Shown here one piece after another: positions 2,924 to 59,802 of a stretch of DNA of 64,000 nt (the stretch's first letter is position 1; each line of letters opens with the position of its first letter). A model generated the notes under the pieces. That model was given only the letters and a program-made list of their open reading frames with translations, was not told the origin of the DNA and did not search any database. The translations under genes were made by a program, and so were the position numbers. The stretch comes from Fragilariopsis cylindrus CCMP1102 (lineage: Eukaryota; Bacillariophyta; Bacillariophyceae; Bacillariales; Bacillariaceae), in NCBI GenBank assembly GCA_900095095.1, contig FMBT01000478.1:1-64000 (forward strand). Reading direction: 5' to 3'.

Positions 2924-4900
2924 ATGTTTTCGCCATTATCGTCGTCGTTACCAACGAAAGCAGCATTGAACATGGCGGCAGGTGTTATTGGTCGTAACGC
3001 TACTGCTGCTACTGCTACTGCTACTGCCACTGCTGCTGCAACAGCTACTACCAACAATTTAGATTCTATCAATTGGAATGATAGAATTGCAAAATTGATA
3101 ATTTCATTGCTATTACGTTCCATCTTTAATATGACTATCAATAATAATGATCTGACTACTATACAGGAGAGTTATAATTATAAAATAGGATTACAAAAGA
3201 TAATTCATACCAGAACAATCCATTCGATATTAGTGGCCATGAATTTATTTTGGTATCAAGCCATACGTCAATCGGTCGCAATATTATCTGTATTTATGTG
3301 TACCGAATTTAATACTATTACAAAAATAAGAATGGATACCACACAACAGGCACAATTAATTGCTGCACCATCGGTTGGTAATATACTAACACAAGCCTTT
3401 GGTAGTTCTATCATACATTTATTAGATATAAGTGGACTGGGTGGTACCAAGACTGCTATATCTATAGCATTATTTGGTTTAGCATTTGGTTGTACAGTAT
3501 TACCATTGACTATTAATTCTGGGTCATCTTCATCCTCGTCCGAACCATTATTACAAAAAGCATTTTTATTATTAGCACTACAAGGATTATTCTTTGGAGC
3601 AATGTTTCCATCTCATTCGGTCTTGTTATCAAAATGGTTACCACCCTCCGAACGTGGTATTGGTATGGCCTATGGTGAAATTGCCATGTCCATTGCATCC
3701 ATGATTGTACCATTAGTGGTCACAGGTATTGCGGAAAAATATACTAAATATGAACAAGTACAACCTGCTACAATAACGTCGTCAACGCCAAGTAGTAGTA
3801 AAATTATACCAGGATGGAGGAATGGATTTTATGTTGTTGGTTTTGGTTGTTTTAGTTATTTATTTACATGGATAATATTTGGTCGAAATGAACCAAATGT
3901 CTGTTCTTATATATCAAAAAAGGAATTCCATTATTTAAATTCAGTATCCACATCAACAGCATCAACGAAACAGAGACAAAATAAGAAGATACAGCCGAAG
4001 AATACTGACTCGTCGTCTAGTTTATCATCATCAGCAGCAGCAGCAACTAGTTCATCATCATCATCATCATCATCAGCTGTTTCAATATTATTTCATCCAT
4101 CCATCCTATCGTTGTTTTTAGTACATATGATATATAATTTTGTGACACTGAGTATTAATTCCTGGATGCCAACCTATTACAATGATGTACTTGGAATGCC
4201 ACCAAGTCAGTCTAAAATTCATATTATATTACCACAAATCTGTTCTCTGGTCGTGAAATTATTTGTATCAAAATTTGCAGTATGGGCACGACAACATAAA
4301 CAAAACAAGTTGACAACCTTCAACAACAGCAGTAACAACAAAAACAATAGAAATATCGTCGTAAAAGAAGAAGAAGAAGAACAACGATCAACATCAATAT
4401 TATTATTCTCAAGACGACTTATGAGTTATATTGGATTTATTGTCACAGCAATCCCATTATGGTTACTACCAATAGTTGCAAATAATGCCTCATCATCTTC
4501 CACTTCAACCGCTACTACAGTTACTACTAATCCTAGATTATATTTATATTCACCATGGTATACAACACTATTATTTTGTATCTCATTAATGGGTACCGGA
4601 TTTCATTCAGAATCATTTCGTGCCAATTATTTAGATGTCACAACAGAGAATGTTGGTTTAATATCTGGTATTGGTAATTGTTTGTCGAGTGTTAGTGCAA
4701 TGATGGCACCATTTTTGGTTGGTAAAATCATACAAAAATATAGTAGTGGCAGTGGCAATAAGGGTGTTATTGCTGGTTGGTCTGTGGTATGGAAATTATC
4801 TAGTATACTATGTGTTGTGGCTGCAGTCATTTTTGGATCATTTTCAACAACAATACCAATTGAACAGCAACGTCTACGTCAACAAAAGAAGGAAGAATAA
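2924..4900 (+). CDS. SLC17-like major facilitator anion transporter
   Basis: Intronless, 658 aa. I chose the ATG at 2924; the frame stays open to a TTG at 2876, but an ATG is preferred. Residues 85 to the end carry the hydrophobic segments of a 12-helix MFS carrier. The cytoplasmic-loop motif PPSERGIGMAYGEIAMS, the block INSWMPTYYNDVLGM in the second half and FRANYLDVTTENVGLISGI near the C-terminus match the SLC17 (sodium-phosphate/organic anion) group. Low-complexity Ala/Thr, Ser and Asn/Glu inserts lie at the N-terminus and in the loops, especially the large central loop. Likely role is transport of phosphate or an organic anion across the plasma membrane or an internal membrane; substrate and membrane cannot be told from sequence. 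Family sure, substrate not. Confidence 0.82.
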   Translation: MFSPLSSSLPTKAALNMAAGVIGRNATAATATATATAAATATTNNLDSINWNDRIAKLIISLLLRSIFNMTINNNDLTTIQESYNYKIGLQKIIHTRTIHSILVAMNLFWYQAIRQSVAILSVFMCTEFNTITKIRMDTTQQAQLIAAPSVGNILTQAFGSSIIHLLDISGLGGTKTAISIALFGLAFGCTVLPLTINSGSSSSSSEPLLQKAFLLLALQGLFFGAMFPSHSVLLSKWLPPSERGIGMAYGEIAMSIASMIVPLVVTGIAEKYTKYEQVQPATITSSTPSSSKIIPGWRNGFYVVGFGCFSYLFTWIIFGRNEPNVCSYISKKEFHYLNSVSTSTASTKQRQNKKIQPKNTDSSSSLSSSAAAATSSSSSSSSSAVSILFHPSILSLFLVHMIYNFVTLSINSWMPTYYNDVLGMPPSQSKIHIILPQICSLVVKLFVSKFAVWARQHKQNKLTTFNNSSNNKNNRNIVVKEEEEEQRSTSILLFSRRLMSYIGFIVTAIPLWLLPIVANNASSSSTSTATTVTTNPRLYLYSPWYTTLLFCISLMGTGFHSESFRANYLDVTTENVGLISGIGNCLSSVSAMMAPFLVGKIIQKYSSGSGNKGVIAGWSVVWKLSSILCVVAAVIFGSFSTTIPIEQQRLRQQKKEE

Positions 4901-6250
4901 ATCTAGTTAAAAGAAATAAAAATCGTCAATACATCGATAGAAATAAACACACCAATTTGCTATGGATAATATCTTTTTAGGCTAAGCTAAGCTAAGCTAG
5001 CTAGCGGTTTTTACTAATCCTCTCCCTGACCGATAATAGAATAGACTACAGTACCACAATTGTGTACTATTATTCTTGTCGTATTTATTGTAGTCGTGAC
5101 TTTTCCCGTTTCCCGCCGTTTGCGTCGTCATTCTCATCATCTCCCGTTTTTGTTTTGTTTTTGTTTTGTTTTGTCTTATTTTATCCTTGATCCCTGCAAG
5201 GTACGTACTATAATAGTTCGTGTACAGTAGATCTTTAATAAAACTATTATATATATATTCCTTTTATGATATATACGTCGGCTTCGTCCCTTCTAGACAT
5301 TTCGTCTTCGTTGGAATCATAATTTGTCTTATATTCTGTATTTCAAGCGCCGAATTGCAGAATCAAACTTTCTTTTTTGGAAGTCGATATAATTTCGTCC
5401 GTTTATCAATACTGGTTTCTAACTTTTGTTGATGGACTTCATTTCATTTATTTTATCTTTGAATTGTAGACCGTAGAGTTTTATTTGTATCTTGCTGGAC
5501 TGCTTAGTTTTTTTAGCTTAGTTATTCTATCGAATGCAACTTTGAACCGCTATTACTGTGTATTCTACTATTGTTCTCGTACTTCCAGAATGAATCAAGG
5601 ATGCATTCTGCGCATTTTGATGACATCACTAAGAAATCTTTGACTGGTTAAGTGATTGATTCAAGTTTCATTGTGGAGCCTTTTACTGCTGATCCTTTTG
5701 TTTCCACACACTTATATCTTATTGCTTTCATAGTTTTTCGCTAATCGTTATGCTATAATGGGCTTACCGTTACACTCCAGTCAAAGGGAGATTAGATCGT
5801 TGACCTCACTTCAAAAATGCAGTTGGTCCTAGTCCTACATTGTATAGGATACTTCGTGTACGTACAGCAGTTCGCGATGCGTGCGGATTCTATCTGATCA
5901 TAGCGCATTTTCAGTTACATAAAAAGTAAATTGAAATCTCAACATGATGAACGAAAATAAAAAAGCCTCCATTACATCTTCAATTCTTCTTCTTCTTCTT
6001 TCTTTTGTACTATTATCGTTAGCTGTGAACGAAGTGCAGTGTGGCTATCGTGAACTCGAATGGACCATACTGCGTCTAGTTAGAACTAAGTGTTCCCAAA
6101 AGAATAGAAATGGATATTGTATTATTTTAAATATGTTTCTATTATTACAATGTATCTGATGTTCATGTGTTTTTCGTTTTTACGGGTGCGAATCTAATTC
6201 AGTGTGAGCGATTTTGATTGTCCCCATCCCGATTGAATGAGGTCTTTTTT
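4901..6250. other. intergenic region, no clear gene
   Basis: This lies between two convergent genes. It starts with the 3' UTR of the transporter, then has a gctaagctaagctagctagc run at about 4981-5003 and a tttgttttgtttttg run near 5150-5175. One 71-aa frame at 5944-6159 begins with a hydrophobic stretch (SSILLLLLSFVLLSLAV) resembling a signal peptide followed by three cysteines, but it has no recognisable mature part. It could be a small secreted peptide or chance; I give it about one chance in five. Confidence 0.4.
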
Positions 6251-7998
6251 CTACACCGTTGTGACAACAATAACCTTTTCTTTGTATTCAGTATTAGGGA
6301 ATTTCGAGTTGAACTTTTCTTCGCAGACTTTATTTCGTTCCTCATCGCTATCATTGACAGTTGTATTACGATACCCGACAATAGTTTTTTCATACTCTGA
6401 CACATGATCTTTGTCAATTTTGCCTTCCAAGTATTGACGGAAAACGAATGCAGATAAGTCATTATCACTACGTACATCAGGACTGAGACCATAATCTTCA
6501 TCATATTGCTCTGGACTGATAGTATCATCATAATTAAATCCCTCACATGCACGGAACTGGATTCGGAATGAATCTGGGACATGTTCAATGACCAACTTTC
6601 CATCGTCCCAAGCTAGCTGTATAATTGGTACGTCCAACGGCCTCAGTACAATCGGCACGTGCAATAACTGCACTCATATCTTCGACACAGCCACACATTG
6701 CCTGCTCACCAGCAATTAATGGATCATCAGTGATCGATTCGGCGTATCCACGAGTATACAAATGATCGTACATACTAACAAAGAATAGGTTGTTCCATCT
6801 AGCGTTTGCGTTGACGTCACCAGATGTGTCCTCTAAGGTCGACCAAGCCATTCCATGGCAGTGCAAGTCCTGTTCGGTAACTCCACCTGGGTAGGGGTAC
6901 GGACTATCGATGTCATCAACAACTTCCGTCCAGCACACATCAGTGTTGTCACCCGGATTGGATTTCGCACAGTCTTGACGAGCACAGTTTCCATTTTTAT
7001 CAAAATACTGTCGGAAATTAGAAGAAGAAATAAAAAGAAGCGAAAATCCTGTTAGAAAACACACATGACATTAATCAAATCAATAACTACAGCACTTTAA
7101 TACATAAGGATAAACAACAACAACACACACAGCACACACAGCACACACACACACACATGAGCACTTACCTGTCGGTCACGTTGCCAGCAACATACGGCAG
7201 CATTAGTGGCATTGCATCCCTTTTGAAAATCAGTGGTTGGTGCATCTAAGAATGCAACTCTCGCTTCATTTGTATAGAACTGTAAAATAGCTTCCCCTCC
7301 ATGATACGATGCGTCACTGGTGCTATAATGGTCATTTTCACGTGGATCATCACCAATATAATTGAATCGTTCCTGTCCACCACGTTTCACGAAATCATTT
7401 GCATCTTGTTGAAAGTTACCTGTTTCTTTGTTAAGGTACCCTTTACCTTCAAAGAATTCTTCTAAATCTGCGAGAAACAAAAAAGAAAAGAATAGAAAAA
7501 GAAAAGTCGTATATATTAGATGATAATGAACTGGGTAAAAGATCAATCGACTATGGACTCGACTCTCGTGCTTATTATACAATACGTACTAATTTCATGC
7601 GGTTCACTTGTAAGAGATCCCCATGTGCTTTTCGGTGAGATCATCGCTGCTGCGATGGATGCATCAAGTAACGCATCATCACATAAAAATTGCAATTGAC
7701 GCTTAGCATCACTATTTTTTTGTCCTGTTGTATTAGTGAGTGCCATCAATTCACGACCGAATCCACCGCGACATTTGACTTTCGTATCTGGATTGTTGTT
7801 TTGCAAACGAAAATGATTTTTGATTCGAAATAACAATTTACGTCCGGTACACTCAATTCCCTTCAGGTTAAAGTTGTTAAACACCTCCGAATAATCGTAA
7901 CAAGTAATAGAACGATCAACTTTTGCTTCCACGATAGAAGAAGTGAACACGACAACAAGAACGAGGAAGGTAGTAACAGCAGCAATACGAAACATCAT
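6251..7998 (-). CDS. secreted Cys-rich conserved diatom protein, unknown function, with a frame break
   Basis: Three exons on the minus strand: 7998-7590, 7467-7169 and 7007-6251. Donors GTACGT and GTAAGT and the phases (1, then 0) join cleanly. The protein starts with a signal peptide (MMFRIAAVTTFLVLVVVF...VEA). Exon 2 ends with AAVCCWQRDRQ and exon 3 carries HCHGMAW, NNLFFVSMYDHLYTRGY, MCGCVEDMSAVIARADC and, near the C-terminus, NNDLSAF-like SDNDLSAF and LEGKID. This block order fits a widespread diatom secreted family as I remember it; no enzymatic fold is assigned. Near 6612-6625 the reading frame moves by one base, from ...TNYTAS to WDDGKLVIEH. The break sits beside tt/ggg, no normal intron fits, and the downstream frame stays protein-like. 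It is either an indel in the assembly or a real lesion. Confidence 0.72.
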
Positions 7999-27923: not shown

Positions 27924-30089
27924 TTAATTACGACGACGACGACGAAGGAGTTGTCGATGATGATGGTGATTATTATTGTTGCTATTACCCTGTACCTGCT
28001 GCGATTCAATATTGGTATTATCAGTAGCAACATTATTACTACCAACATTTACTATAAGAATACCATTGTCTTCTACCTCTACGCCGTCTATATCAATATT
28101 TGTATTTGTATTATCAGCAGCATTATTACTACCAATAACATTAACTGTAAGAACACCATTGTCTTCTACATCGACTTTGTCTATATCAATATTTGTATTT
28201 GTAGTTATAATATCAGTAGCAGCAGCATTATCAGCAGCAGCATTATTACTACCAACAGTAACTGTAAGAACACCATTGTCTTCTACCTCTACTTCGTCTA
28301 TATCAATATTTGTATTTGTATTTGTATTATCAGCAGCATTATTACTATCAGTAATATTTACTGTCAGAACACCACTGTCTTTTACATCTACTGCGTCTGT
28401 ATCAATATCAATATTTGTATTATCAGCAGTATTATCAGCAGCATTATTACTACCAACAATTAATGGGTTTTTCGTTGAAACAGGACGAAGTTTAGCACTA
28501 GCACTATTATTAGTAGTAGTTGTAGTTGTTGTCCTTGCAGTTATTACGGTTGTGACAGTTGACGATGAATCTTCTTTTTCTCCTTTAAAGAATGCGAATG
28601 GATCAGAATCATTATCATCATGATCATCTTCTTGAGCAGCGACAATAGCTTCTTCATCTTCTTCTTGAGCAATATCAATAGTGGTACTAGTAAATTCAGT
28701 TATCATATCTTCATGATATTCTTCATCATCATTATCTTGTGATGGTAATATAACATAATCGACCATATGTATAATACCATTACAGTTCTTCCTCTTATTA
28801 TTATTTTTCAACACAAATTTTGGTTTGATACTATTAGTATGGATACCATTCCCACTAACTCCCATCACATAGGAGACAATTGCATTGGCGTCACATCCAA
28901 TTTTGGTGATTTGTCCATTTAACATATATGTTTTGGTACCACATATCATTTTTTCGTATGGTACTGGTAAAGAATCATCATTACCAATAATATGATTTAA
29001 TAGTAATTTTGTCAAATCATGTCCACTTAACATTTGTGGTGGTGATGATATACTTTCATTTTGATATGCTTTAATAAATGCATCATTTGTTGGTACATAT
29101 ATTGTATAGAATGAATTCGTATTCGCGGACTCTGACGACGATAAGATGTGGTTGTGGTGTAGCATAGTATCTAATCCCACTTGAATCAATAAGGAACAAA
29201 ATGTACTAAAAGAAGAATCATTGTCATCACTACATATTGATTCCGTAATGGATTCACAATTATTAGTATCAGATTCTGATTCTTCTTCTTCTTCTTTTAC
29301 TACTATTGTTGCTGCTGCTTCTTTCGTTGCTGTTGCTACTGCTTCTAAAACAACGACGACAGGTACGGCAGACGATGACGATGTTCTATCTGGTACTGAT
29401 GGTGGTTTGCCTTGAATTAGTTGAATTAAACCACCATTGAATATAGGTTGACCATTCATTTTATTTAATAAATACCATTCGGCAATAATAATATTATCGT
29501 TATCAGCAGTTGTATCCTGAGCAGGATTCGAATTCGAATTCGAATTTGACGTCTGTGTCAATAACCATTGTGTATTATAGTTATTATTTGATTTATCAAT
29601 TCCATATGATTTACCATTAATAATATTATCACCAGTAGAGGATGATAGATCAATAGCTAAGACATTCCTCCATAATAATAATCCGGATGATATACCAGAT
29701 GATTCTTCAAATGATGAAAATTTAAGTGGAAGTTTTTGTTCATTCTTAATTTCATTTGCTGGTCCGATTGGAAAGAATTCTATACTATTTCCAAAATAGT
29801 TAGGACCAACACATAGGTAGTGTGGATTAATGCCACCGTCATGAATACCATTATTAGTTGGACAAGAATCACCTTCTCTAGTGGATATACTTTCATTCAA
29901 TGGTAATGAACCATATGATTCTAATACAACAGTGTTCTCATTTTCATTGATATAAACATAATATCTTAAATCAGCTTTGACAAACAAAATTGGAACTTTT
30001 GTTGTAAACGTGGTTATAAGGAACAACCCTATCGCTGTCCACGAAGACGAGAACAACGACGATGATGATGACGATGATGATAATCTCAT
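27924..30089 (-). CDS. secreted fasciclin (FAS1) domain protein with C-terminal repeats
   Basis: A single exon of 721 aa. A signal peptide or anchor spans residues 1-39. Residues 40-230 form a globular region with LRYYVYINENENTVVLESYG and NYFGNSIEFFPIGP, a layout I associate with secreted algal anchor-domain proteins; this is a guess. Residues about 280-450 are a FAS1 domain (FCSLLIQVGLDTML, YTIYVPTNDAFIKAY, LLLNHIIG, GIIHMVDYVILPS). Then comes an acidic/Thr-rich linker and, at about 555-705, imperfect repeats of about 35 aa built around NTNIDID.VEVEDNGVLTV. The tail is His- and Arg-rich (RQLLRRRRRN). FAS1 domains mediate adhesion at cell surfaces. The gene lies inside the 27.5/32.5 kb inverted repeats. 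Confidence 0.85.
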   Translation of the reverse strand: MRLSSSSSSSSLFSSSWTAIGLFLITTFTTKVPILFVKADLRYYVYINENENTVVLESYGSLPLNESISTREGDSCPTNNGIHDGGINPHYLCVGPNYFGNSIEFFPIGPANEIKNEQKLPLKFSSFEESSGISSGLLLWRNVLAIDLSSSTGDNIINGKSYGIDKSNNNYNTQWLLTQTSNSNSNSNPAQDTTADNDNIIIAEWYLLNKMNGQPIFNGGLIQLIQGKPPSVPDRTSSSSAVPVVVVLEAVATATKEAAATIVVKEEEEESESDTNNCESITESICSDDNDSSFSTFCSLLIQVGLDTMLHHNHILSSSESANTNSFYTIYVPTNDAFIKAYQNESISSPPQMLSGHDLTKLLLNHIIGNDDSLPVPYEKMICGTKTYMLNGQITKIGCDANAIVSYVMGVSGNGIHTNSIKPKFVLKNNNKRKNCNGIIHMVDYVILPSQDNDDEEYHEDMITEFTSTTIDIAQEEDEEAIVAAQEDDHDDNDSDPFAFFKGEKEDSSSTVTTVITARTTTTTTTNNSASAKLRPVSTKNPLIVGSNNAADNTADNTNIDIDTDAVDVKDSGVLTVNITDSNNAADNTNTNTNIDIDEVEVEDNGVLTVTVGSNNAAADNAAATDIITTNTNIDIDKVDVEDNGVLTVNVIGSNNAADNTNTNIDIDGVEVEDNGILIVNVGSNNVATDNTNIESQQVQGNSNNNNHHHHRQLLRRRRRN

Positions 30090-32470
30090 GATGGTTACAG
30101 TATTATAGCAGCAGTATCTGATTATATTGGTTGGGTTGGGTTGGGTTGGGTTGGGTTGGGTTGGATTCTTATATAATAAGTAAAGTCATTCATTCGGAAC
30201 GAAGTACTGTAACGTTAACGAAGTTTTTGATCGATTAAAATAAATATGTTGATATCTTTTTTTCAAAAAAATAATCCAACAAAAAATAACGGTATTTAAT
30301 TTAATCCGCGACCAACAAAAGATACAAAAACTATAATTTTATTATAAAATATAAGCCTTCTTCTTGTAACATGATGGTCAACGACAAAAATGAGCAAACG
30401 GTGGTACTACAGACAGTAGTAGGAGATGCGATAAATATCATACTTGTTCATTGTATGATATCGATGGTGTGAATGAATCAATGAATCAATATGGCAAACA
30501 AGAGTATGCGTGCTACTCTCATGATTCTTTTTGGTTGAACCATCATCTTCTTTTCAGTAGAGTAGTACGCGGATAATATAAAGGGTTCTCGTACGAAACA
30601 AGTCTATATCTGTTTGAACAACATCCTTTAAGAATACTCCCTTTTTACCGTTCTTAGACCTTGCTTTCTCTGAAACTGACTTTATCACCGTCTATAAAAT
30701 CATCGAATGACTTGTGCCATTCGGTAGATCTGTGAGCATGATTGTAATAAGGATCTATTCAATCTGTTCAGATTCAACCCAAAAGCCAGCTTTTGCCGAT
30801 GAAATAATCGTCGTGAAAGATAAAGAAGCATGGTAAGCGAAATTTGCTGGGGTGAACTTCATTTTTCGGATATATATGAAAATATTTTTTGAGAAGTGAA
30901 AACATTTTTGGAAAAGTGAATACATTTTTTGAAATTTTATCGACTGAAGTGACCTTACTGTCCCGGTCTACACCCACACTAAGGGGAACAACCCACATTC
31001 CAACAACGGAACAGAGGTCCACGAAGATATAGCAAAAGACTCAACCCTCCTTCCTAACGCCGGTACACACCGAGTGGAAAACAGCCTTGAAACACCAATA
31101 CTATTTTGTACGGTACCGGTATGCACGTTGTGTGTTCTTTTATCATATTCAATCGATAAAGAATCCAACTATTAAAAGAAGTCGACCCTATCTGTAGTTG
31201 TGAGTACAGGACGACGTCAAGAACTCCTCACAAGCTTTTCAGAAAAGACAAATCATCGTTTCTCATTCACTTGTTGAAGTTGTTGGGTACATTTGGATCT
31301 TGCTACTTGTATAATATTGTACACACGGTCAATGGTATCAATTAGCTTATATTTAATGGAACAGTACAAATAATGGAATGGTACTAATAAAGAGTGGACC
31401 ACAATCTTGTTCATGGTGAACTACAGTGTAGCTAACTCTGTCGTGTTTAGGTAGAAAATATTCCATATCAAAATTGTTCTACTTCTATACTTCTATATTT
31501 TTCATTCTTAAATCAGATCTTCTAAATAATAATAGAGTAAAATATACTCAACGTAACTGATTTCATCAACTTCTGATCATAATTAAAAAATGTTAGATGA
31601 AGCCCATCTGAATCGAACGTATCAGTCAGTCTAATTTATCGAGTACACATCTCAGCTCATCAAACTGCATCCACAGGAACGTATTCGGTTCATTCGTGGT
31701 CAAATATCTGCACGAAATATATAAACAGTATATAGTAATGCCTGGTTCAGCTTTAAAATGTTTGTTGAATGGAAGAACCATATTTAAGGTTCTTTAGTAC
31801 AAAAGCTACAGAAATTTATACAGAAAAAAAATAATAACGGGTGTGCCCATACTCTGCCTGTTGTTAACGCTGTTGCTTGTTTCGCATCATACATATATTA
31901 ATGTTACAAAGAAGAATTCTTTGACTAACTGAATCATACACGATGACGATAACGACTACGATAGACAATGTGGTACCTAAAATAGATGAAATGACATCAA
32001 AATGATGTGAATGATAATGGTACAATAGGTAGATTCACATACAGGATATTCGATAGGGGGCCAGCTGCTTTATATTATACGTTATCGACTTTGTTTGTGA
32101 TATCAAGAAGAACAATCGACTCTGCAGTACTATACGTAGCACAGCCATGATTTATACCTGTAGCGAAAACTGTAGTCGCCGCTGCTGTTGCTTGTTGTTC
32201 TTGAAGATGACAATCGTTGTGTTCATGTTGTACGGTTCCCATTTCACTAGCCTTTGTTGTTGTTGTTATTTTTGTTGTAGGAACCGTATTTTTATCATCT
32301 CCTCGTACTATTTCTTCCCATTTTGAATGCCGTCCACTTTTTACGAAACATAATGCAGCTGCAATGCAATGGACGCAACGGCGACCCAATTTTGTTCACT
32401 ACAGTAGTCGTAGCCGAAATCCGGATTCAAATTTCTATAGCCATCAGTTAAGGTAAAGATAGAACAACTG
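30090..32470. other. long intergenic region upstream of the FAS1 gene
   Basis: A ttggg pentamer run at 30127-30164 sits about 40 bp upstream of the FAS1 start codon. The rest is AT-rich with no domain-bearing frame. Aaatattttttgagaagtg-like imperfect repeats occur near 30880-30930. A 104-aa minus-strand frame at 32075-32389 (MGRRCVHCIAAALC..., Thr-rich middle) has no recognised homology and is left as unlikely coding. Confidence 0.4.
30127..30164 (+). repeat. ttggg pentamer microsatellite, about seven units
   Basis: A regular run of ttggg units just 5' of the FAS1 gene. It resembles telomere-type repeats in composition but the unit is five bases and the run is short and internal. Confidence 0.9.
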
Positions 32471-41195: not shown

Positions 41196-41276
41196 ACACA
41201 CACAGCACACATTTTAGGGATTTAAGATATAATATGTGTACACACAACAAAATATCTCATATAAAAGGGTTGCAGA

Positions 41277-41930
41277 GGACAACATCTTCTAAGCTGGGTG
41301 CACTAGCATCCGCATAGTGTACTAGAACATTGTAGTTGCCTCCTACCACTTTTTTGTTCCTGTGGTTGAGGAATAAAGTTTGTTTTGCTGTTGATGCAGC
41401 ACGCACACAACATGATTTTTCACCAGAAATGAATACAAAATATCTTATTTGAAAGGGTTCAAGAGGACAACACCTTCTAGGTCGGGTGCACTAGCATCCA
41501 CATAGTGTACTAGAACATTGTGTTAGCCTCCTATCACTTTTTTGTTCCTGTGGTTGTTGAATAAATTACAATCCGCTGTTGTGGAAGGCAAACAAACAAT
41601 AACATGTTCAATCAAAATAATGAACAACAAAATATCTTATTTGCAAGGGTTGCAGAGGACAACACCTTCTGGGTTGGGTACACTAGCATCCACAAAGTGT
41701 ACTAGAACATTGTGTTTGCCTCCTACCACTTTTTTGTTTCTGTGGTTGTTGAATAAATTACATACCCCTGGTGAGGTAGGTAGGTAGGCACAAAAATAGC
41801 ATGATTTTTTATTAACACAATGAACAACAAAATATCTTATTTGCAAGGGTTGCAGGGGACAACATCAGATGGGTCAGGTACACAAACATTCACATAGTAT
41901 TGTGTTTGCCTCCTACCATACAACCATCCC
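41277..41930 (+). repeat. tandem array of 178-200-bp units inside TIR element copy 3
   Basis: Units start at 41277, 41455, 41647 and 41847 with gggtt(g)c(a)(g/a)aggac; spacings are 178, 192 and 200 bp. They are more diverged from each other than the units of copy 1, so this array looks older or less homogenised. Confidence 0.85.
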
Positions 41931-43122
41931 TGGTGGTTCATCATCACTTGACTAAAGTAATTCTGATTGTTGTCGTTTTTATCTCACAAATTCTCCAGTG
42001 TAGTTTGGTTATTAGAATATTAAACAACTTTGAATAATAAGATAGATGAATAACTTCTCCTTAAGTTCTAGAACCAGCATGGTGCACTAAGATACCATCC
42101 AGTCATCCATCCTATACCCATAGGGGATGAACCAAGGGTCATGATCCCTTATAAATACCTTATTCTTGCCTCCAGAATACAAACATTGCATTTTGGCCAA
42201 CATGCCATGCCCCAAAGTACCATTCAGAAATAGGCTGCCACAACATCAAAAAAAGGAATTGGACCATGGTTTAAACACCTAGATACCTTCCATATATACA
42301 TATGGTCAAAATACACCAACAATACTTGGAACAGTTGCCATATTGGTGGTATGGTGGGGTGGGGAACAATAGAATAGACATAAATTGGCCCAAAATACAC
42401 ACATTGCAAAAATATTTGAGATGCTACTGCCCCCATACCAGGTATGCTGAGTCCCAAATAAAATAGCTAGACATCAGCCGGTTTTGGATTCTATCATTGG
42501 TTTAAGTAATCATACATATATTTGGGGTGCCATGGGTCAAAACCCACCGCTATTAGAACACACAATTTCTCTTAGTGCCAAGTGCGCATGTAATCAAGGC
42601 CGTGATGCACCATCAATACAGTCCTAATAACCTTGAAATATTATATTGAGCTCAACATTATACCTATGGGTACAAGGTCTAACTATTGCTTAGGGCTCTA
42701 GGGAGGTTAGGAAGGTGTCAGGGTGTGCTAAGCCCCCAAAAGGGTCATTTAGGCCCCAAAACAGGTTTTCCCCCTCTAGCGCCAACATCAGCATGGTCCT
42801 GCCCATAGCTTGCCAAGTTTATATTCTCTTTGGTGTATATGGTCAACCCCATGTGCTTACTTTGGGACAATTCATCTTTTTGAGTGTGTACTAGGTCACA
42901 TACCCCCCCCCCCCCCAAATGGGTCATTTTCCCATGTCCTAGAAGGCAGAACACCCTTTACCACCTTCCAGTGTGAAGACCACATACCTAGTGCCCCAAA
43001 GTCCGGTCCAGGTATCCACCCTATGAATATGGTAAGGTAAATGAACTCTCCCGGACCAAAAAGTAGCATTTTTCTGGAAGTTCTACCCTGGTTTGTGTCC
43101 TGAACAAGATATCTCATAAAAA

Positions 43123-43298
43123 GATGATGTGTGCTGTGTGTGAGCCTACATTTTGAGATACCAGTAGGCTTAGGAGACTAAGGAATATAACAATTCTCCA
43201 TTCAATAGGTCAATTGTAAACTTCATAGTTTAATTTTCAAAAAAAATTACTCTTTAGGTGTATATATTTGATGCTAAAGTTATTATTATACCAGTAAC
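43123..43298 (+). repeat. right terminal inverted repeat of TIR element copy 3
   Basis: Ends ...taccagtaac at 43298. Partner of 41010-41195 and homologous to 1945-2140 (copy 1) and, reversed, to 36710-36890 (copy 2). Confidence 0.85.
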
Positions 43299-43829
43299 AA
43301 AAAAGATGTTTCAAACGTGGCTTCAAACAAGATATTGTTTCAAACGTGGATCCTTTAGTCTTTTCTGATTCCCGCGACTGTGACTCACTCAACAATATTT
43401 TGTCGTGTAGCTACACGTCATAAGAATAAAAAAAGCGAAGGCATGATTCATAATTGCAATCGGATGGTGTTTGCTCAACGAAAATAGGTAAAATTGATAT
43501 TGATTCTTCAGATTGCCGATGAATTTCGATTCAATGCATTCCTTCAAAAAAATGAGACGTTGTTTGTCCTTGTGTATTTCAAAAAGGAAGCGAATGTTGG
43601 TCTCGTCGCTCACAAAATACTTCAAAGATTACAACCACTGCAACCAAAAACCAAACCAAGATCAATCATTTACAACAACAACAACAACAACAAACAGTAC
43701 GCAAAACGAGTTCGTATAAATCTCCTATATTTTATCGACCAGGAAGTCCATTTAACTTTTAAAATACGTCACAAATACACAATGATCGCTACAATCCAAC
43801 CATCCTCAACAAAACCATTGATTAGTACG
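43299..43829. promoter_or_regulatory. region between the TIR element and the silaffin-like gene
   Basis: A direct repeat gtttcaaacgtgg occurs at 43308-43320 and 43340-43352, right next to the element end. A caacaacaa run lies at 43674-43692. The promoter and leader of the silaffin-like gene must lie here. The frame is open from 43494 into the gene, but the segment before 43782 looks like leader sequence. Confidence 0.45.
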
Positions 43830-46481
43830 ATGAAATTTATATTTTTGGTGTTAGCGATTGTATCGTTAACGGTATGTTCTGCAGCAGTAGAAGGTTCACG
43901 AAGTTTAAATGCAGCTGCATCCGAACGAGATCGATTACGAGAACGTGTACGTGAACGTCAAAGTGAACGTAAACGTGGACTTAAATCGGAAAAGTACGCA
44001 AAAGCTAAACAGGCATATGATGATTATCAACAAGATTTATTACCGGTAGGAACAAATCTTGTTGATAATGCACTAGCAACATCACCATCAAAGTTGATGA
44101 AGAGCAAAAAAATTATCAGGAACGATGATAACATCTTTGCAAATGATCTTGTTGATGAAGAAGTACTACCATCGACATCAAGGTCAAAGTCGATGAAGAG
44201 CAGCAAGAAGGGTGATAAGGATAGTAAAGGCAACAGATCTAAAATAAGCAGATCTGAATCACCTTCCTTCAGTCCCACCGACTCAACATCTCCATCAACA
44301 ACAGCGATGCCCGAGACAGTAGGCACTGTAGGACGAGCTGAATCGAGTATTAGTAAGGACGACAACAAGAAGGGTGATAAGGATAGGAAAAGCAACAAAT
44401 CTAAAGTAAGCAAGAAGAGGAGTAAATCTGCATCACCTTCCTTCAGTCCCACCGACTCAACATCTCCATCAACAACAGCGATGCCCGAAACAGTAGGCAC
44501 TGTAGGACGAGCTGAATCAAGAATTAGTAAGAACGATAACAAGAAGGGTGACAAGAATAGGAAAAGCAACAAATCTAAAAAAAGCAAGAAGGAAAGTAAA
44601 TCTACATCACCTTCCTTTAGTCCAACCGACTCAACATCTCCGTCAACAGCGACGCCCGAGACAGTAGGCACTGTAGGACGAGCTGAATCAAGAATTAGTA
44701 AGAACGATAACAAGAAGGGTGACAAGGATAGTAGAAGTAACATATCCAAGGTAATTAAAAAGGGCAGTCAATCTGAATCACCTTCCTTCAGTCCAACCGA
44801 CTCAACATCTTCATCAACAACGGCAGCTGAATCTTCATCAACAACGGCAGCTGAATCCCAGATGACTAAGAACAGTAAAAGCGACAGATCTAAAATGAGC
44901 AACAAGGAGAGTAAATCTGCATCACCTTCCTTCAGTCCCACCGACTCAACATCTCCATCAACAACGGCGATGCTCGTAACAGTAAGCACTGTAGTACCAG
45001 CTGAATCTAAGATGACTAAGAACAGTAAAAGCGACAGATCTAAAATAAGTAACAAGGAGAGTAAATCTGCATCACCTTCCTTCAGTCCCACCGACTCAAC
45101 ATCTCCTTCAACAACGGCGATGCCTGTAACAGTAAGCACTGTAGTACCTGCTGAATCAAAGATGACTAAGAACAGTAAAAGCAACAAGGAGAGTAAGTCT
45201 GCATCACCTTCCTTCAGTCCCACCGACTCAACATCTCCATCCGACTCAACATCTCCTTCAACAACGGCGATGCCTGTAACAGTAAGCACTGTAGTACCTG
45301 CTGAATCAAAGATGACTAAGAACAGTAAAAGCAACAAGGAGAGTAAGTCTGCATCACCTTCCTTCAGTCCCACCGACTCAACATCTCCATCAACATTGGC
45401 GATGCCCGTAACAGTAAGCACTGTAGTACCAGCTGAATCAAAGATGACTAAGAACAGTAAAAGCAACAGATCTAAAACAAGCAACAAGGAGAGTAAGTCT
45501 GCATCACCTTCCTTCAGTCCCACCGACTCAACATCTCCATCAACATCGGCGATGCCCGTAACAGTAAGCACTGTAGTACGTGCTGTGAATGTATTCGTTG
45601 CTGCTCCTGCCAGTATACCTGTAGTGCAAGTGGAAGCTGATATTAAACTCGAAACGGAAACAGTTTTACGAGGAAGTGGTCGCCGCCGTCAACTGCAACA
45701 ACAACAACAACAACAACAACAACATCGTCCTCGTCGTTACTTACTACAGAGGTTAGACAGTACTTCAGTAGATGTAGACGCAACACAAATGGAATGTGAT
45801 GTTGTTTATAGATCCGCTGCTCCTGCTGATTTCCCGGATGATGTTGCTTGTTATGATACTGTGATCACAATAAAGACGGAAGAAGGTAGTGATATGGATG
45901 CTACAGAAGCAGCATTGATTATCAATTCTTCTATAGTTACTGGCTCCTTTGCTACTTCCGATTTAGTTTTTGTAACTGAAGATGTACCATCGATTGATTC
46001 TTCGACATCTCCTACTGCACCAACAAATAGTGATGGTCCTACTTTATCACCTACCGAATCGATCACAGCATCACCAACCAAACGTCCCACTACTATTCCG
46101 ACAGATGCACCGACAGATGCACCGACAGATGCACCGACAGATGCACCGACAGATGCACCGACAGATGCACCGACAGTTCGTAATAATAGTCCGACTGAAA
46201 TTCCGACAGATCTACCAAGCGATAGTCCCACTGCATCGCCTACTAAATCGCCCACTACGAATCCAACTGTTTCGCTGTCAGATGGTCCTACTATATTCCC
46301 TACTATATCCCCTGCTCCAACATTTGAACCAACGACATTTTTTCCAACAGGTACAGAATCACCTACTGAATCCCCTACTGTAACATTTGAACCGTCGACC
46401 TGGAATCCAACCACAACTTACAGCCCAACAACATTTGTGGAAGAATCAGAAGCTACAATGGAAAATAGAACAACTACATAA
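43830..46481 (+). CDS. secreted Lys/Ser-rich repeat protein, silaffin-like candidate
   Basis: A single exon of 883 aa from the ATG at 43830, giving a clean signal peptide (MKFIFLVLAIVSLTVCSAA); an in-frame ATG at 43782 would add 16 residues. Right after the signal lies GSRSLNAA, with RSL at residues 24-26, matching the RXL processing motif of diatom silica-associated proteins. Residues 30-60 are strongly basic. About residues 140-590 hold nine imperfect repeats of roughly 40-55 aa, each with SPSFSPTDSTSPS and a Lys/Ser-rich part such as KKSKKESKS. A short possibly folded region (about 600-700, with a Gln run and MECDVVYRSAAPADFPDDVAC) follows. The tail has PT repeats, including six DAPT units. 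Silaffins are phosphorylated Lys/Ser-rich peptides that promote silica formation; membership is inferred from composition and layout only. Confidence 0.7.
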   Translation: MKFIFLVLAIVSLTVCSAAVEGSRSLNAAASERDRLRERVRERQSERKRGLKSEKYAKAKQAYDDYQQDLLPVGTNLVDNALATSPSKLMKSKKIIRNDDNIFANDLVDEEVLPSTSRSKSMKSSKKGDKDSKGNRSKISRSESPSFSPTDSTSPSTTAMPETVGTVGRAESSISKDDNKKGDKDRKSNKSKVSKKRSKSASPSFSPTDSTSPSTTAMPETVGTVGRAESRISKNDNKKGDKNRKSNKSKKSKKESKSTSPSFSPTDSTSPSTATPETVGTVGRAESRISKNDNKKGDKDSRSNISKVIKKGSQSESPSFSPTDSTSSSTTAAESSSTTAAESQMTKNSKSDRSKMSNKESKSASPSFSPTDSTSPSTTAMLVTVSTVVPAESKMTKNSKSDRSKISNKESKSASPSFSPTDSTSPSTTAMPVTVSTVVPAESKMTKNSKSNKESKSASPSFSPTDSTSPSDSTSPSTTAMPVTVSTVVPAESKMTKNSKSNKESKSASPSFSPTDSTSPSTLAMPVTVSTVVPAESKMTKNSKSNRSKTSNKESKSASPSFSPTDSTSPSTSAMPVTVSTVVRAVNVFVAAPASIPVVQVEADIKLETETVLRGSGRRRQLQQQQQQQQQHRPRRYLLQRLDSTSVDVDATQMECDVVYRSAAPADFPDDVACYDTVITIKTEEGSDMDATEAALIINSSIVTGSFATSDLVFVTEDVPSIDSSTSPTAPTNSDGPTLSPTESITASPTKRPTTIPTDAPTDAPTDAPTDAPTDAPTDAPTVRNNSPTEIPTDLPSDSPTASPTKSPTTNPTVSLSDGPTIFPTISPAPTFEPTTFFPTGTESPTESPTVTFEPSTWNPTTTYSPTTFVEESEATMENRTTT

Positions 46482-55625: not shown

Positions 55626-58600
55626 CTATAGCAAGAAACAATCTTGACCATTATTAGGATTACTACTACTACTAGGACAACATTCAGTACAGCATGCACA
55701 TAACAATGGAACGGGACAACTTGCTTTTAATACTAAATTTTCACCCACAGTATTCATCTTTGTTTTATAGTCATAAGCAATGGGATCACGATTTGTGATC
55801 ATTGAACAAAATTCACGTGGCACGAATCCTGTAATTTTTGTATTTTGAATATATAATTTTTCTTAATAATTTTGTATTTGTTGTAATTTTGTATTTGTTT
55901 GTATTTGTATTTGTTTTGTTTGATGACGATGAGAACAGTAGAGTGAGTGAATAAATCGTAAAAAGAAGAAGAAGAAGAGAGAATTTAGAAAGTATAAGAA
56001 GAGTCAGTCAGTCAAATGCCATGTTGCCGTTATCGTTGCTGTGTTAAACGTTCTCGTCATCGAAGTAGAGTCAGATCTTGTACGTACCAATATTCCTCCA
56101 TTGATCTAATTCTGTGGGGAATGTACCAATAATGGATTCATTATTTGATATATCAAATATACGTATTTCTGTCATTGACCCTAATTCGGTTGGTATTGTC
56201 GATTCGAATCGATTATAACTTAAATTAATACCTTGTAATTTAGTTAACATACTTAATGAGGATGGAATGGATCCACTTAATGAATTTGTATCAAAATTTA
56301 ATAATTGATAAACATTTGTTAATAAACCTAATTCATTTGGTAATTCACCAATTAAATTATTTGCCATTAAATTAATACTACGTATTGGTCGTTCGAACCA
56401 TGTTTGATCATCATCATTCTCTTGATTTAATACAATATCATCCACGAACCATGTTTGATCATCATCAAATAATGCATTAGGATTATTATTCACATTCACA
56501 TTCACATTCCCATAATTATCATCTTCCTTTATTAAAAAAGTATCATCCAATCCATCCACAACTTCATCAACAACTTCATCTTCTTCTTGTACTACTTCTT
56601 TATTTGGCATAATATTATTATCCGGTTGATCAATACCTTCCCATTGACCTGTTTCTTCATTAAACACTAAATCATCACCAGCTAAATCATCAGTTGAATA
56701 AACTAAATCATCTGCTGGAGTATAATCATCCACTTGATTATAATCATCATCCGCAGGATTACCTAATGGATCACCATAACTATACGCATCATCATTGGGT
56801 GTGTCGTATATAACTTCCGGTGCACCAGTTTGTAATTCTCTTTGTTGTAAAAACATCCTTCTTGTTGTTTGTCGTCGTAACAATCTTCTTCTTCCATCAT
56901 CATTATTATCACGTACGGCAATAATAGTAGAAGCAGTAGCAGCAGCATCTTTTTTATCATTCATTGTCATACTACTACTATCTCCACGCAATTCACCTTT
57001 ACAATTAATACCATGCCAATCACATATATCCACTGCAGGATTTAACCAATTCGTACTGATGAACCAATTCGAACCATTGGTGGAATAATACAATGATACT
57101 AATGAAAATATTGTGATTGCTTTTGATTTTTCATAATCTTTAAATGATGGATCACTGACACTTACCGGCATCACATTTGTAAATAATGTAGAGGAATTAT
57201 CAATTAAGAACATAAATGCGAAATATTGTGGACTATCAATCGAACCTAATGTATCCACTAAGGAATCCTTAGGTAATACTTCGGCTATAATTTGACGATA
57301 ATATAGTGCCATATCACTATCCATCATAATATTATCATTATCATTATAATCATTGGGAGGAGTGATGATTGGTGGGGGCGGAGTAGGAATTAGTGGATCA
57401 TTATTATTGTTGTTGTTGCTGTTATTGACTGGAGAAACGTTTGGCGAAACTGTTGGCGAAACTTGATTGTTGTTACTGCCACCACCACTAAACATATTGA
57501 AATTTCTAGTTTTATTTAAAATTGTTGCGGTAACAACTAATGCAATAATAAGAACAATCACAAGAGCACCAACTATACTACCATACGTTAAACATAATTT
57601 TCGTTTCTTTCGTCTTTCATTGTCATCATCATCTACCTCACTACTCCTAGTAGTAGAACCACCGTCACCATTACCATTACTCTTACTGAATGATCGTATT
57701 TGTTCACAATCTTCATTCACAACATCAATAGCAATCACTGCTTCCTGTTGCAATCGACGTCGAATTTCTGCTTCATAATCTGTAGCAGACACAGCTTTTG
57801 CTACTGTCACAGTTCCAGATCCACGATCCACATGTGTGACACCAAATAATGATCGATCATCATCATCATTATTATTCTCTGTTTCATTCGATGAGGTAGA
57901 AAATAATGGTATAGTACTTCTACCACCACTATCGGTTGGTGAATGATAAGTACTATTATTATCAGCCATTGTTGATCCTGATGCTGTTGCACCTGCAAAC
58001 GATACGGATCCTAAATTCAACAAGATAAGACAAGACAAAAAATAATGTGTCAAATGATACTCTATTTATCTTACAAAACAGAACAAAAAACAGTTTTGCA
58101 TACTAAAATCCAAACATCACAGCACAGCACAGAGCAGCACACAATACAATACAGCGCAACGCAAACACAACGCAAACACTTTTGCATACTTTTGTCTTAC
58201 CTGATGTTGCTCTTGATATTGATGCTGACATTGATGCAGTTGCTACTGTTCTTGATGATGCGGCCGTCATCGTCGTCATCGTCGCAGTATTTGCCAAAGA
58301 AGAATTAGGATTCGGATATCGTCTATTAGTAGTAGTAGTAGTACTAGTAGTACTACTAGGAGTACGTCGTACAGGTGGACGTAAATATTCAGTAGATGTT
58401 GCATCAATATAGGTACCAGGTCTTGGTGGTGCAATTACTGGATATTGTTGTTGTTGTTGTTGTTGATGAGCAGCAGCAGAAATTTCTTCACTACTAGGTA
58501 ATTCACTTATATCACTTACACGACTAGTAGGACTAGTCACATAATAATCACTAATAGTATGATTCAGTTGTGTTACTGATCGTCTTTGTGTGGGATGTTC

Positions 58601-59698
58601 TGAATTAGATGGAAAAACAGCAACAGCACCGGCACGATTAGTAACACTAGTACTAGTACTACCACTAGTACTGCCATTGCCACCACCACTAACATTGCTA
58701 ACTGATGTTGAACTACTACTACTACTACTACTTGTTGTTGTTCTTCGTTGCATACTGGTAGGAACAGGTAAAGGATCAGGATCAGGATTAGTTGAACTAC
58801 TACTACCACTAGTCCTACTACCAGTACCAGTATTTGGACTACTACCGTATTGTTGTAAAAGAATTCTTTGTTTTTCATCCAGTACATCTTGATCAATTGC
58901 ATCCTTATTATTATCTTTGGTAGCCGTTGTAGTTTTCTTATTTTTCTTCTTCTTCTTCTTACTTGCACTACTACTGGATGATGTATTACCCTTACTAATA
59001 ACGGATGTTGTTGAATCAGAAAGATTCTGGCGACTATTACTTGTCCCTTGTTGTTCATCGCCGCCGCCAACGCTGCTGCCACCGCTGCCACCAGATGATT
59101 GCTTCTTACCCTTCTTGGTCTTGATACTGCTGCTTCTACTACTACGACTACTTTTCGGTCTTGACAACAATGATGATGATGATGATGGTGTTGCTACTCC
59201 TGTTACTCCACTTCCTTCTCTAGTAGGTGCTCCATTAACAGCTTCATTATCCGTATTATTGTCAGTAGAAGCGGACACTGACACTGACGCAGACGCAGTA
59301 GACGTAGTTGGAGTAGTCGTATAATTCCTTATAGCTGCTGCAACAACAGCATCCACAGATTCTTTTTCTTTTTTTAATGCTTTTTTTAACTTCTTGTCTT
59401 TATTTCCCGCCTGCTGTTGTTGTTGTTGTTGTTGCTTTTTCTTCTTCTTTTTCTTCTTGGATGACGACGATGATAATGTTATTCCTACGTTATTAGGATT
59501 ATCATTGTCAACGTTATCATCATCATTGTCCACTTGAGGGTAAAGCGATGAAGTTGTAATATTATTACGACATGTTAATCCTAATACTTGTTCATTTGAT
59601 AGAGCAACAGAAAATTCAGAACTACTATTATTATTATCATCAGCATCGTCAGCAGCAGCAGCATCAGCAGCACTATTAACGCTCATAGTAGTAGACAT
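55626..59698 (-). CDS. leucine-rich repeat transmembrane protein with a long low-complexity N-terminal half
   Basis: Three exons: 59698-58201, 58010-56088 and 55828-55626 (donors GTAAGA and GTACGT, both phase 1), giving about 1207 aa. Residues 1-499 are hydrophilic, with Lys/Gln runs, KKKKKKNKKTT-type basic tracts and many Ser/Thr runs, presumably cytosolic. One membrane segment lies at about 640-665 (LTYGSIVGALVIVLIIALVV), preceded by RRKKRK, so the inside-to-outside topology is N-in. The outer part has the diatom LRR cap (LYYSTNGSNWFISTNW...CDWHGINC), acidic and Asn-rich inserts, then three to four LRRs (IRSINLMANNLIGELPNELG, LSGSIPSSLSMLTKLQGINL, GSMTEIRIFDISNN). The C-terminus is Cys-rich (ASCPVPLLCACCTECC). 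Such proteins probably bind ligands at the cell surface; the ligand is unknown. Confidence is lower for exon 3. Confidence 0.82.
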
Positions 59699-59802
59699 AA
59701 TTGATTGCTTTTACTTCAGAAAAAATTAAATCTCTACTCTCTCTACTCTCTTTCTCTCTCTCTCTCTCTCTCTACTCTCTCTCTCTACTCTCTCTCTACT
59801 CT

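Follow-up and report, generated by a model that had tools for sequence, protein, structure and literature searches.

The diatom locus and its gene

The window, the whole 64,000-nucleotide stretch of Fragilariopsis cylindrus DNA that was analyzed, carries a gene for a long, repetitive and apparently secreted protein, and the question raised by this locus is whether the protein belongs to the silica-associated proteins of the diatom cell wall. Given its layout, its make-up and the company of its C-terminal domain (C-domain), the best single reading is that of a silaffin-like precursor of the cell wall that is secreted and then processed by proteolysis, to which a probability of roughly 55% is assigned. 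A sequence-only reading had pointed to this gene and described a leader, an RXL motif, Lys/Ser repeats and a PT-repeat tail, and the observation was confirmed as a whole, as one open reading frame (ORF) with that layout. An upstream in-frame ATG, the C-domain and a second site of the array had escaped that reading. The features are as follows.

43830-46481, + strand: gene of the putatively secreted repeat protein, a single intact ORF of 883 amino acids without internal stops
43782..43829, + strand: alternative in-frame ATG 48 bases upstream, adding 16 amino acids (MIATIQPSSTKPLIST) before the signal-like segment
43830..43886, + strand: signal-peptide-like leader, residues 1 to 19, with a hydrophobic core and the small residues SAA at its end
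43899..43907, + strand: RXL site RSL, residues 24 to 26, kept in the C260 allele
43974..43982, + strand: RXL site RGL, residues 49 to 51, about 30 residues past the leader, kept in the C260 allele
44169..45590, + strand: array of nine Lys/Ser repeats with SPSFSPTDSTSPS, residues 114 to 587
45591..45992, + strand: conserved C-domain, residues 588 to 721, about 134 amino acids, with no Pfam family over it
45687..45695, + strand: RXL site RQL, residues 620 to 622, inside GRRRQLQ of the C-domain
45735..45743, + strand: RXL site RYL, residues 636 to 638, in the C-domain, kept in the C260 allele
46005..46478, + strand: PT tail, residues 726 to 883, without a hydrophobic C terminus

The window is contig C571 of the 67.9-Mb assembly that was searched, and this search retrieved a second allele on contig C260. 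The second allele encodes 828 amino acids with 8 repeat units rather than 9, is open from start to stop, and retains the leader, the RXL sites, the C-domain and the PT tail. The in-frame ATG at 43782 is present in both alleles as a possible alternative start, and the frames diverge upstream of the ATG. Between the alleles, dN/dS (from small numbers) is 0.48 for the whole gene, 0.40 for the array, 0.25 for the C-domain and 0.65 for the tail. Residues 1 to 120 carry eight nonsynonymous differences and one synonymous difference, so that the N-terminal region shows no sign of constraint. When residues 1 to 235 were searched against the assembly, they matched both alleles and an array on contig C714, and nothing else.

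Elsewhere in the window, a fasciclin-domain protein is encoded at 27927-30185 on the minus strand (PF02469, E = 7.3e-9); the domain is followed by repeats rich in Asn and Asp (NNAADNTN...VEDNGVLTV). Neither an Rfam family at gathering score nor a tRNA was found in the window. Silicon transporters are represented in the genome by 27 family matches, which favors the silaffin-like reading.

Leader, RXL sites and PT tail

The best 11-residue hydrophobic window of the leader, FIFLVLAIVSL, has a mean Kyte-Doolittle value of 3.22 by a hydrophobicity heuristic, and the leader is strong in both alleles as judged from hydropathy with an ambiguous start codon. The signal peptide claimed earlier stands as a signal-like hydrophobic N terminus, from which we infer a signal peptide function. 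The RSL motif was correctly placed at residues 24 to 26, and three further RXL sites follow at residues 49, 620 and 636. All four are common to both alleles, and this number compares with 1.0 expected in shuffles (P = 0.018). Since an RXL string also occurs somewhere in 8 of 12 PT-only control ORFs of the genome, the motif alone says little; the silaffin trait of an RXL site after the leader is present (RSL at 24, RGL at 49) and is not specific.

The PT-repeat tail was borne out, with 28 PT dipeptides in 158 amino acids and a Pfam PF04886 match at E = 6.7e-7. This tail drives the whole-protein homologue search, which gave 310 matches at an E value of at most 10 among 7,975 scored (best, 6.6e-33), and these were rejected as kin. 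Within the best 120 of the 310, PF04886 is found in 105, next to varied partner domains, and where an alignment is given (all but 4 rows) the aligned part is at most 20% of the query, with the exception of P0015, which aligns over 61% of the query at 27% identity. Residues 1 to 722 have no homologue at an E value of up to 1 among 7,978 candidates, a search in which Lys/Ser low-complexity words may crowd out relatives. The best solved-structure match to the protein has an E value of 0.033 and is not meaningful. A separate PT-tail protein family, with repeated Cys/Lys units (CENSDSFRF...TCDSYVAKKPNKRCRKK), was observed at loci L012, L014, L015 and L069.

The frequency of PT tails on unrelated proteins weakens the silaffin-like reading, and it fits a protein of the secreted or cell surface matrix that serves in mucilage, adhesion, cell chains or an organic casing and has no direct role in silica. 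The array and the PT tail would then be glycosylated or phosphorylated extended spacers. This alternative is rather unlikely, although it carries more weight than the other rivals considered below, and the long Lys/Ser array, with its pentalysine clusters and RXL sites, stands against it.

Composition of the repeat array

The array is repetitive far above chance (TRF scores of 895 and 896), and the description of nine Lys/Ser repeats with nine copies of SPSFSPTDS was correct. The unit length given earlier, about 40 to 55 amino acids, is close to the 44 to 58 amino acids measured: units 1 to 4 have 56 to 58 amino acids and contain KKGDK, and units 5 to 9 have 44 to 53 and contain MTKNSKS. A charged stretch lies between the RGL site at residue 49 and the array, and the array itself is free of Cys.

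The Scheffel criterion asks for at least 18% Ser and at least 10% Lys per 100-amino-acid stretch (PMC3478156). It is passed by 444 of the 784 such stretches of the protein, spanning residues 53 to 596, and by two of the 37 stop-to-stop ORFs of at least 150 amino acids in the window. The second of these, at 58103-59710 on the minus strand, shows Lys runs and no obvious leader, and by its look is a false positive of the screen. Pentalysine clusters are defined as five nonconsecutive lysines within 12 to 14 amino acids (PMC5501833, PMC9650480); six clusters without adjacent Lys start at residues 48, 181, 184, 239, 444 and 494, the one at 184 overlapping that at 181. A stricter screen demands repeated K(S/G)(S/G)K motifs, 1 to 6 residues apart (PMC5501833). 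The 883-amino-acid protein failed it, with a single KSSK at residue 123. Thus, the KxxK-like clusters noted earlier hold for KxxK of any kind, of which there are 38, but just one has Ser or Gly inside.

The comparison with the layout of silica proteins was accordingly upheld in part: Ser/Lys content and pentalysine clusters agree with it, whereas the repeated K(S/G)(S/G)K screen and two cysteines, Cys 656 and Cys 674, do not. This single strict KXXK motif and the two Cys in the mature chain weaken the silaffin-like reading, and the two Cys, which lie in the C-domain, also speak for a matrix protein.

A C-domain shared with other Lys-rich genes

The C-domain is marked by VxVAAP..., RRxLQ, the two cysteines and C-Y-x-x-V-I-T-I; the whole protein has three Cys, one of them in the leader. 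A single-sequence structure model of the domain reached a mean pLDDT of 31 and was unusable. Run against 243 proteins, gathered by their PT tail or by their match to the ABC protein (see below), a profile of the domain brought the window's own protein alone above the inclusion threshold.

Searches of the assembly with the C-domain alone (residues 587 to 727) or with single relatives, the upstream part being excluded from the query, revealed the domain at five other loci: the frame is open at three, interrupted by a break at one and decayed at one. The best E values were 2.4e-9 for C674, 2.8e-9 for C234 and its allele C307, 4.6e-9 for C15, 0.002 for C459 and 0.059 for C587. C234 and C307 have two tandem copies of the domain. 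Leave-one-out profiles, searched against a database of 804 ORFs, recovered the window protein at 1.1e-18, C674 at 2.4e-24, C234 at 1.2e-30 and C459 at 8.7e-9, while C587, never used in profile training, scored 9.8e-8 with the full set and 5.0e-8 to 1.9e-5 in other runs. The loci with a broken or decayed frame are the following.

C674, about 335700-338560, - strand: gene with KGGKGSKGSK, Tyr-rich stretches, DUF285 repeats, a frame break, the C-domain and a PT tail
C15, 6600-8100: decayed C-domain copy with stops, frame changes and Lys-rich remnants, nearest to the C234 gene

At all five loci, a Lys-rich stretch lies beside the C-domain, and at three of them it contains KSSK/KGSK runs resembling those of cingulins. 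Upstream of the domain, C674 encodes KSSKSGGGYYG...KGGKGSKGSKGG, followed by Tyr-rich stretches, DUF285 repeats and the frame break, which is either an assembly error or the mark of a broken gene. C459 has KSSKSLKSSKKDKD and KSSKSSKKDKDKESKSSKSNK in this position, and C587 has KSSKSSKSSKSSKSS (ELKSSKSSKSSKSSKSS...). The corresponding part of C234 is Lys-rich with poly-Lys and little Ser, and that of the C307 allele is Lys-rich too. By eye, leader-like starts are apparent in just two of the relatives, C674 and C234; C587 has a hydrophobic stretch some way in from its start.

A basic site precedes Leu-Gln in the window protein (RRRQLQ), C674 (RHRHLQ), the first C234 copy (RRNLQ), C459 (RRRNLQ) and C15 (RRNLQ), and is absent from the second C234 copy and C587. 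RRxLQ-like strings were also observed in unrelated matched proteins, such as P0005, so that the site is probably a general one.

Five proteins with the C-domain, from the window, C234, C459, C587 and C674 (5' part), were compared with 12 control stop-to-stop ORFs from 9 contigs; neither the remnant on C15 nor the alleles on C260 and C307 entered the count. The controls had matched mainly on the PT part and were taken as lacking the C-domain; C632, C442 and other PT matches were not included among them. A Lys cluster, counted here as five Lys within 14 amino acids or six K(S/G)(S/G)K, occurs in all five C-domain proteins and in 3 of the 12 controls, a small comparison that was made after the relatives had been seen. 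Five or more K(S/G)(S/G)K were found in 3 of the 5 proteins, whereas none of the 12 controls has this motif in any number. The Ser/Lys criterion is passed by 3 of the 5 (window protein, C459 and C587; C674 falls just short and C234 well short) and by 2 of the 12 controls, which just pass. One control, the first ORF on C589, shows a weak match to the domain profile (E = 0.0088 to 0.038, in 4 of 6 top-ten lists); it has no Lys cluster and may be a distant member of the C-domain family, judged from this profile match. Other weak C-domain matches, with E values of 0.03 to 0.93 (C108, C770, C131, C253/C421, C78, C166/C754, C447, C90, C41 and C68), were left out of all counts.

The absence of K(S/G)(S/G)K from the 12 PT-tail controls and its single occurrence in the window protein favor a matrix protein, but the C-domain relatives, with their Lys-rich and partly cingulin-like stretches, do not. 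These same stretches beside a shared domain strengthen the silaffin-like reading. The C-domain would be a constant part with a role in folding, sorting or assembly, and Lys-rich modules of different kinds would be joined to it. Both the domain and the repeat are apparently undescribed, according to Pfam and to literature searched by topic. Silaffin-like proteins have so far been screened by composition or motif and not by shared sequence; a C-domain that recurs beside Lys-rich modules would offer a homology handle for finding them, and as the constant part its role in sorting or assembly could be tested apart from the variable part.

An array copy on an ABCG-type transporter

The third locus with the array encodes an ABC protein.

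C714, 23500-33000 (L010), positions 4185-6640 within it, - strand: ABCG-type half-transporter gene with four array units at the C terminus

The four units occupy residues 377 to 605 of the exon-2 frame and follow in frame after the last hydrophobic segment. A search of the assembly with this ABC protein found no other copies of it. Its relatives number 424 at an E value of at most 0.01; the 120 listed span 341 to 995 amino acids, and the array motif is absent from all of these best 120 of 424. Organisms among the matches listed include Thalassiosira, Fistulifera and Seminavis. The closest relative among the matches listed, P0124 (96%), is a fragment with a different, also Lys-rich repeated tail, and P0125 (88%) has a short tail. 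A model of P0125 from 32 sequences gave a mean pLDDT of 79 and a pTM of 0.77, and its best solved-structure matches were ABCG25, ABCG5/8 and ABCG2 (E = 9.5e-7, TM of about 0.5, large rmsd). The topology of ABCG transporters sets the side of the membrane on which the C terminus lies, and on the modeled fold the array-bearing C terminus of the C714 transporter should be cytosolic. Contact with silica is unexpected at such a place, and the presence of the same array there weakens the silaffin-like reading.

The last C714 unit ends in VVRAVK, compared with VVRAVN at the end of the array in the window gene, and the C714 array begins at the internal AES of a unit; for both reasons a window-like gene is the likelier donor. 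A false join in the assembly is a possible source of the fusion. C714 and C70 were considered as two alleles of the ABC locus, and this was rejected, as just the neighboring CRAL-TRIO gene aligns (1,026 bases, 91%). A dispersed repeat was observed at 41244-43301 of the window, just upstream of the gene, with other pieces near 1940, 36700 and 41000, and also beside the C714 gene. As carrier of the array it is unsupported, since its position is upstream for the window gene but downstream for that of C714; its opposite sense relative to the genes and its commonness (40 matches scored for 43000-43310) disfavor it further. Immediately upstream of the ABC gene (L010, about 6640-6830, - strand) lies an LTR-like stretch, about 190 bases long, which has many copies, several of them paired about 6 kb apart.

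The C714 copy bears on two further alternatives. The array could be a coding minisatellite, spreading and varying in length under little selection, its Lys/Ser make-up tied to no one function. The 9 and 8 units of the two alleles, the homogenized units and the copying of four units onto the ABCG-type tail, where a short stretch at the joint is shared, would suggest this. Such a reading is improbable: no unit is interrupted or out of frame at the three loci (window, C260 and C714), allelic dN/dS stays at 0.40 in the array and 0.48 in the whole gene, and dS exceeds dN in 24 of 24 nonindependent pairs of C714 units with window or C260 units (ratios of 0.25 to 0.92). The second alternative makes the array a general module, phospho-regulated and bearing many charges, that suits either side of a membrane: secretory in the window protein, and a cytosolic binding or regulatory tail on the transporter. 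This appears very improbable. It draws on the in-frame array after the last helix and on the Lys-rich tail of P0124; its basis is one contig of one genome, read from sequence alone, and the ends of the ABC relatives among the matches listed are, by eye, mostly mixed or acidic.

A broader proposal is a new diatom protein family in which a constant two-Cys domain and an RRxLQ processing site are combined with exchangeable Lys-rich, silaffin- or cingulin-like modules that move between genes, one of them onto the cytosolic tail of an ABCG-type protein. This proposal is tentative and, as a whole, doubtful. If true, the array on the ABCG-type protein could link a membrane pump with the charge-based chemistry by which the wall forms. 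As a natural transfer of a module, the array on this transporter separates the action of the repeat from its location.

Proposed processing of the putative precursor

For a silaffin-like precursor, the leader would take the protein into the endoplasmic reticulum (ER), and cleavage at RSL and RGL would remove a short propeptide. Cleavage at residues 620 to 638 would free the array from the PT tail and the greater part of the C-domain. Within the ER and Golgi apparatus, Ser residues of the array may be phosphorylated and the clustered Lys residues modified. Sorting would then bring the resulting chain, disordered and with many charges, to the silica deposition vesicle, where it could bind silica and long-chain polyamines. 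The window protein is a candidate silaffin-like wall precursor, identified by its layout and composition in genomic DNA; the two Cys, the strict motif screen and the lack of a homologue among the candidates scored tell against naming it a silaffin outright.

Comparison with known silica-associated systems

At most one Cys is present in silaffins, cingulins and silacidins (PMC5525289), and silaffins are fully disordered; the mature chain of the window protein has Cys 656 and Cys 674. Silicalemma-associated proteins (SAPs) have a single transmembrane segment and a conserved cytoplasmic domain; such a segment is not seen in the window protein on hydropathy, which beyond the leader reveals one marginal hydrophobic 19-amino-acid window, starting at residue 581. 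Silicanins have an Asn/Gln-rich domain with many Cys and a C-terminal transmembrane helix; the 883 amino acids of the window protein include 35 Asn, 19 Gln and 3 Cys, without a C-terminal hydrophobic segment.

The protein shares a leader (signal-like in its own case), Ser/Lys content, pentalysine clusters and RXL sites with the silaffin-like proteins (SFLPs) of Thalassiosira pseudonana retrieved by the Scheffel and KXXK screens. Fourteen SFLP/KXXK proteins of this diatom, including TPSIL1, also have PT repeats, a feature reported for many silicon-regulated products (PMC5501833). It differs from the SFLPs in having one K(S/G)(S/G)K, with Lys interleaved with Asp, Asn and Arg besides Ser and Gly, and in its conserved two-Cys C-domain. 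Repetitive Lys clusters are shared with the cingulins CinY and CinW, and the Tyr-rich stretches with KGGKGSKGSK of C674 are near in style to the lysine-enriched regions of cingulins (PMC9650480). In contrast to the cingulins, the window protein has no Trp/Tyr-rich regions, its 1 Trp and 7 Tyr being scattered over 883 amino acids.

Thaps3_24597, from the Tpsil3 expression cluster, has 53-amino-acid repeats with 18.7% Ser and 12.8% Lys (PMC3478156). Set beside the window protein by this description, it likewise has Ser/Lys repeats of about 50 amino acids; unlike it, Thaps3_24597 has several KXXK, mostly KSSK, and the excerpted account mentions no PT tail. Sil1p of Cylindrotheca fusiformis resembles the window protein in the succession of a leader (signal-like in the window protein), an N-terminal part and basic, Lys-clustered repeats. 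Ends with RRIL and RRNL are missing from the mature Sil1p peptides (PMC4557024), and these RR(I/N)L sites compare with RRRQL in the window protein and RRNL in the relatives C234, C459 and C15, located at the C-domain. By description, the repeats of 44 to 58 amino acids with SPSFSPTDS and no RRxL between units set the window protein apart from Sil1p, as does its length (883 versus 265 amino acids). Finally, the ABCG half-transporters ABCG25, ABCG5/8 and ABCG2 share the order of nucleotide-binding and transmembrane domains (NBD-TMD) and the helix layout with P0125, at 12 to 17% identity and a large rmsd, and to this design the C714 gene adds four silaffin-like units.
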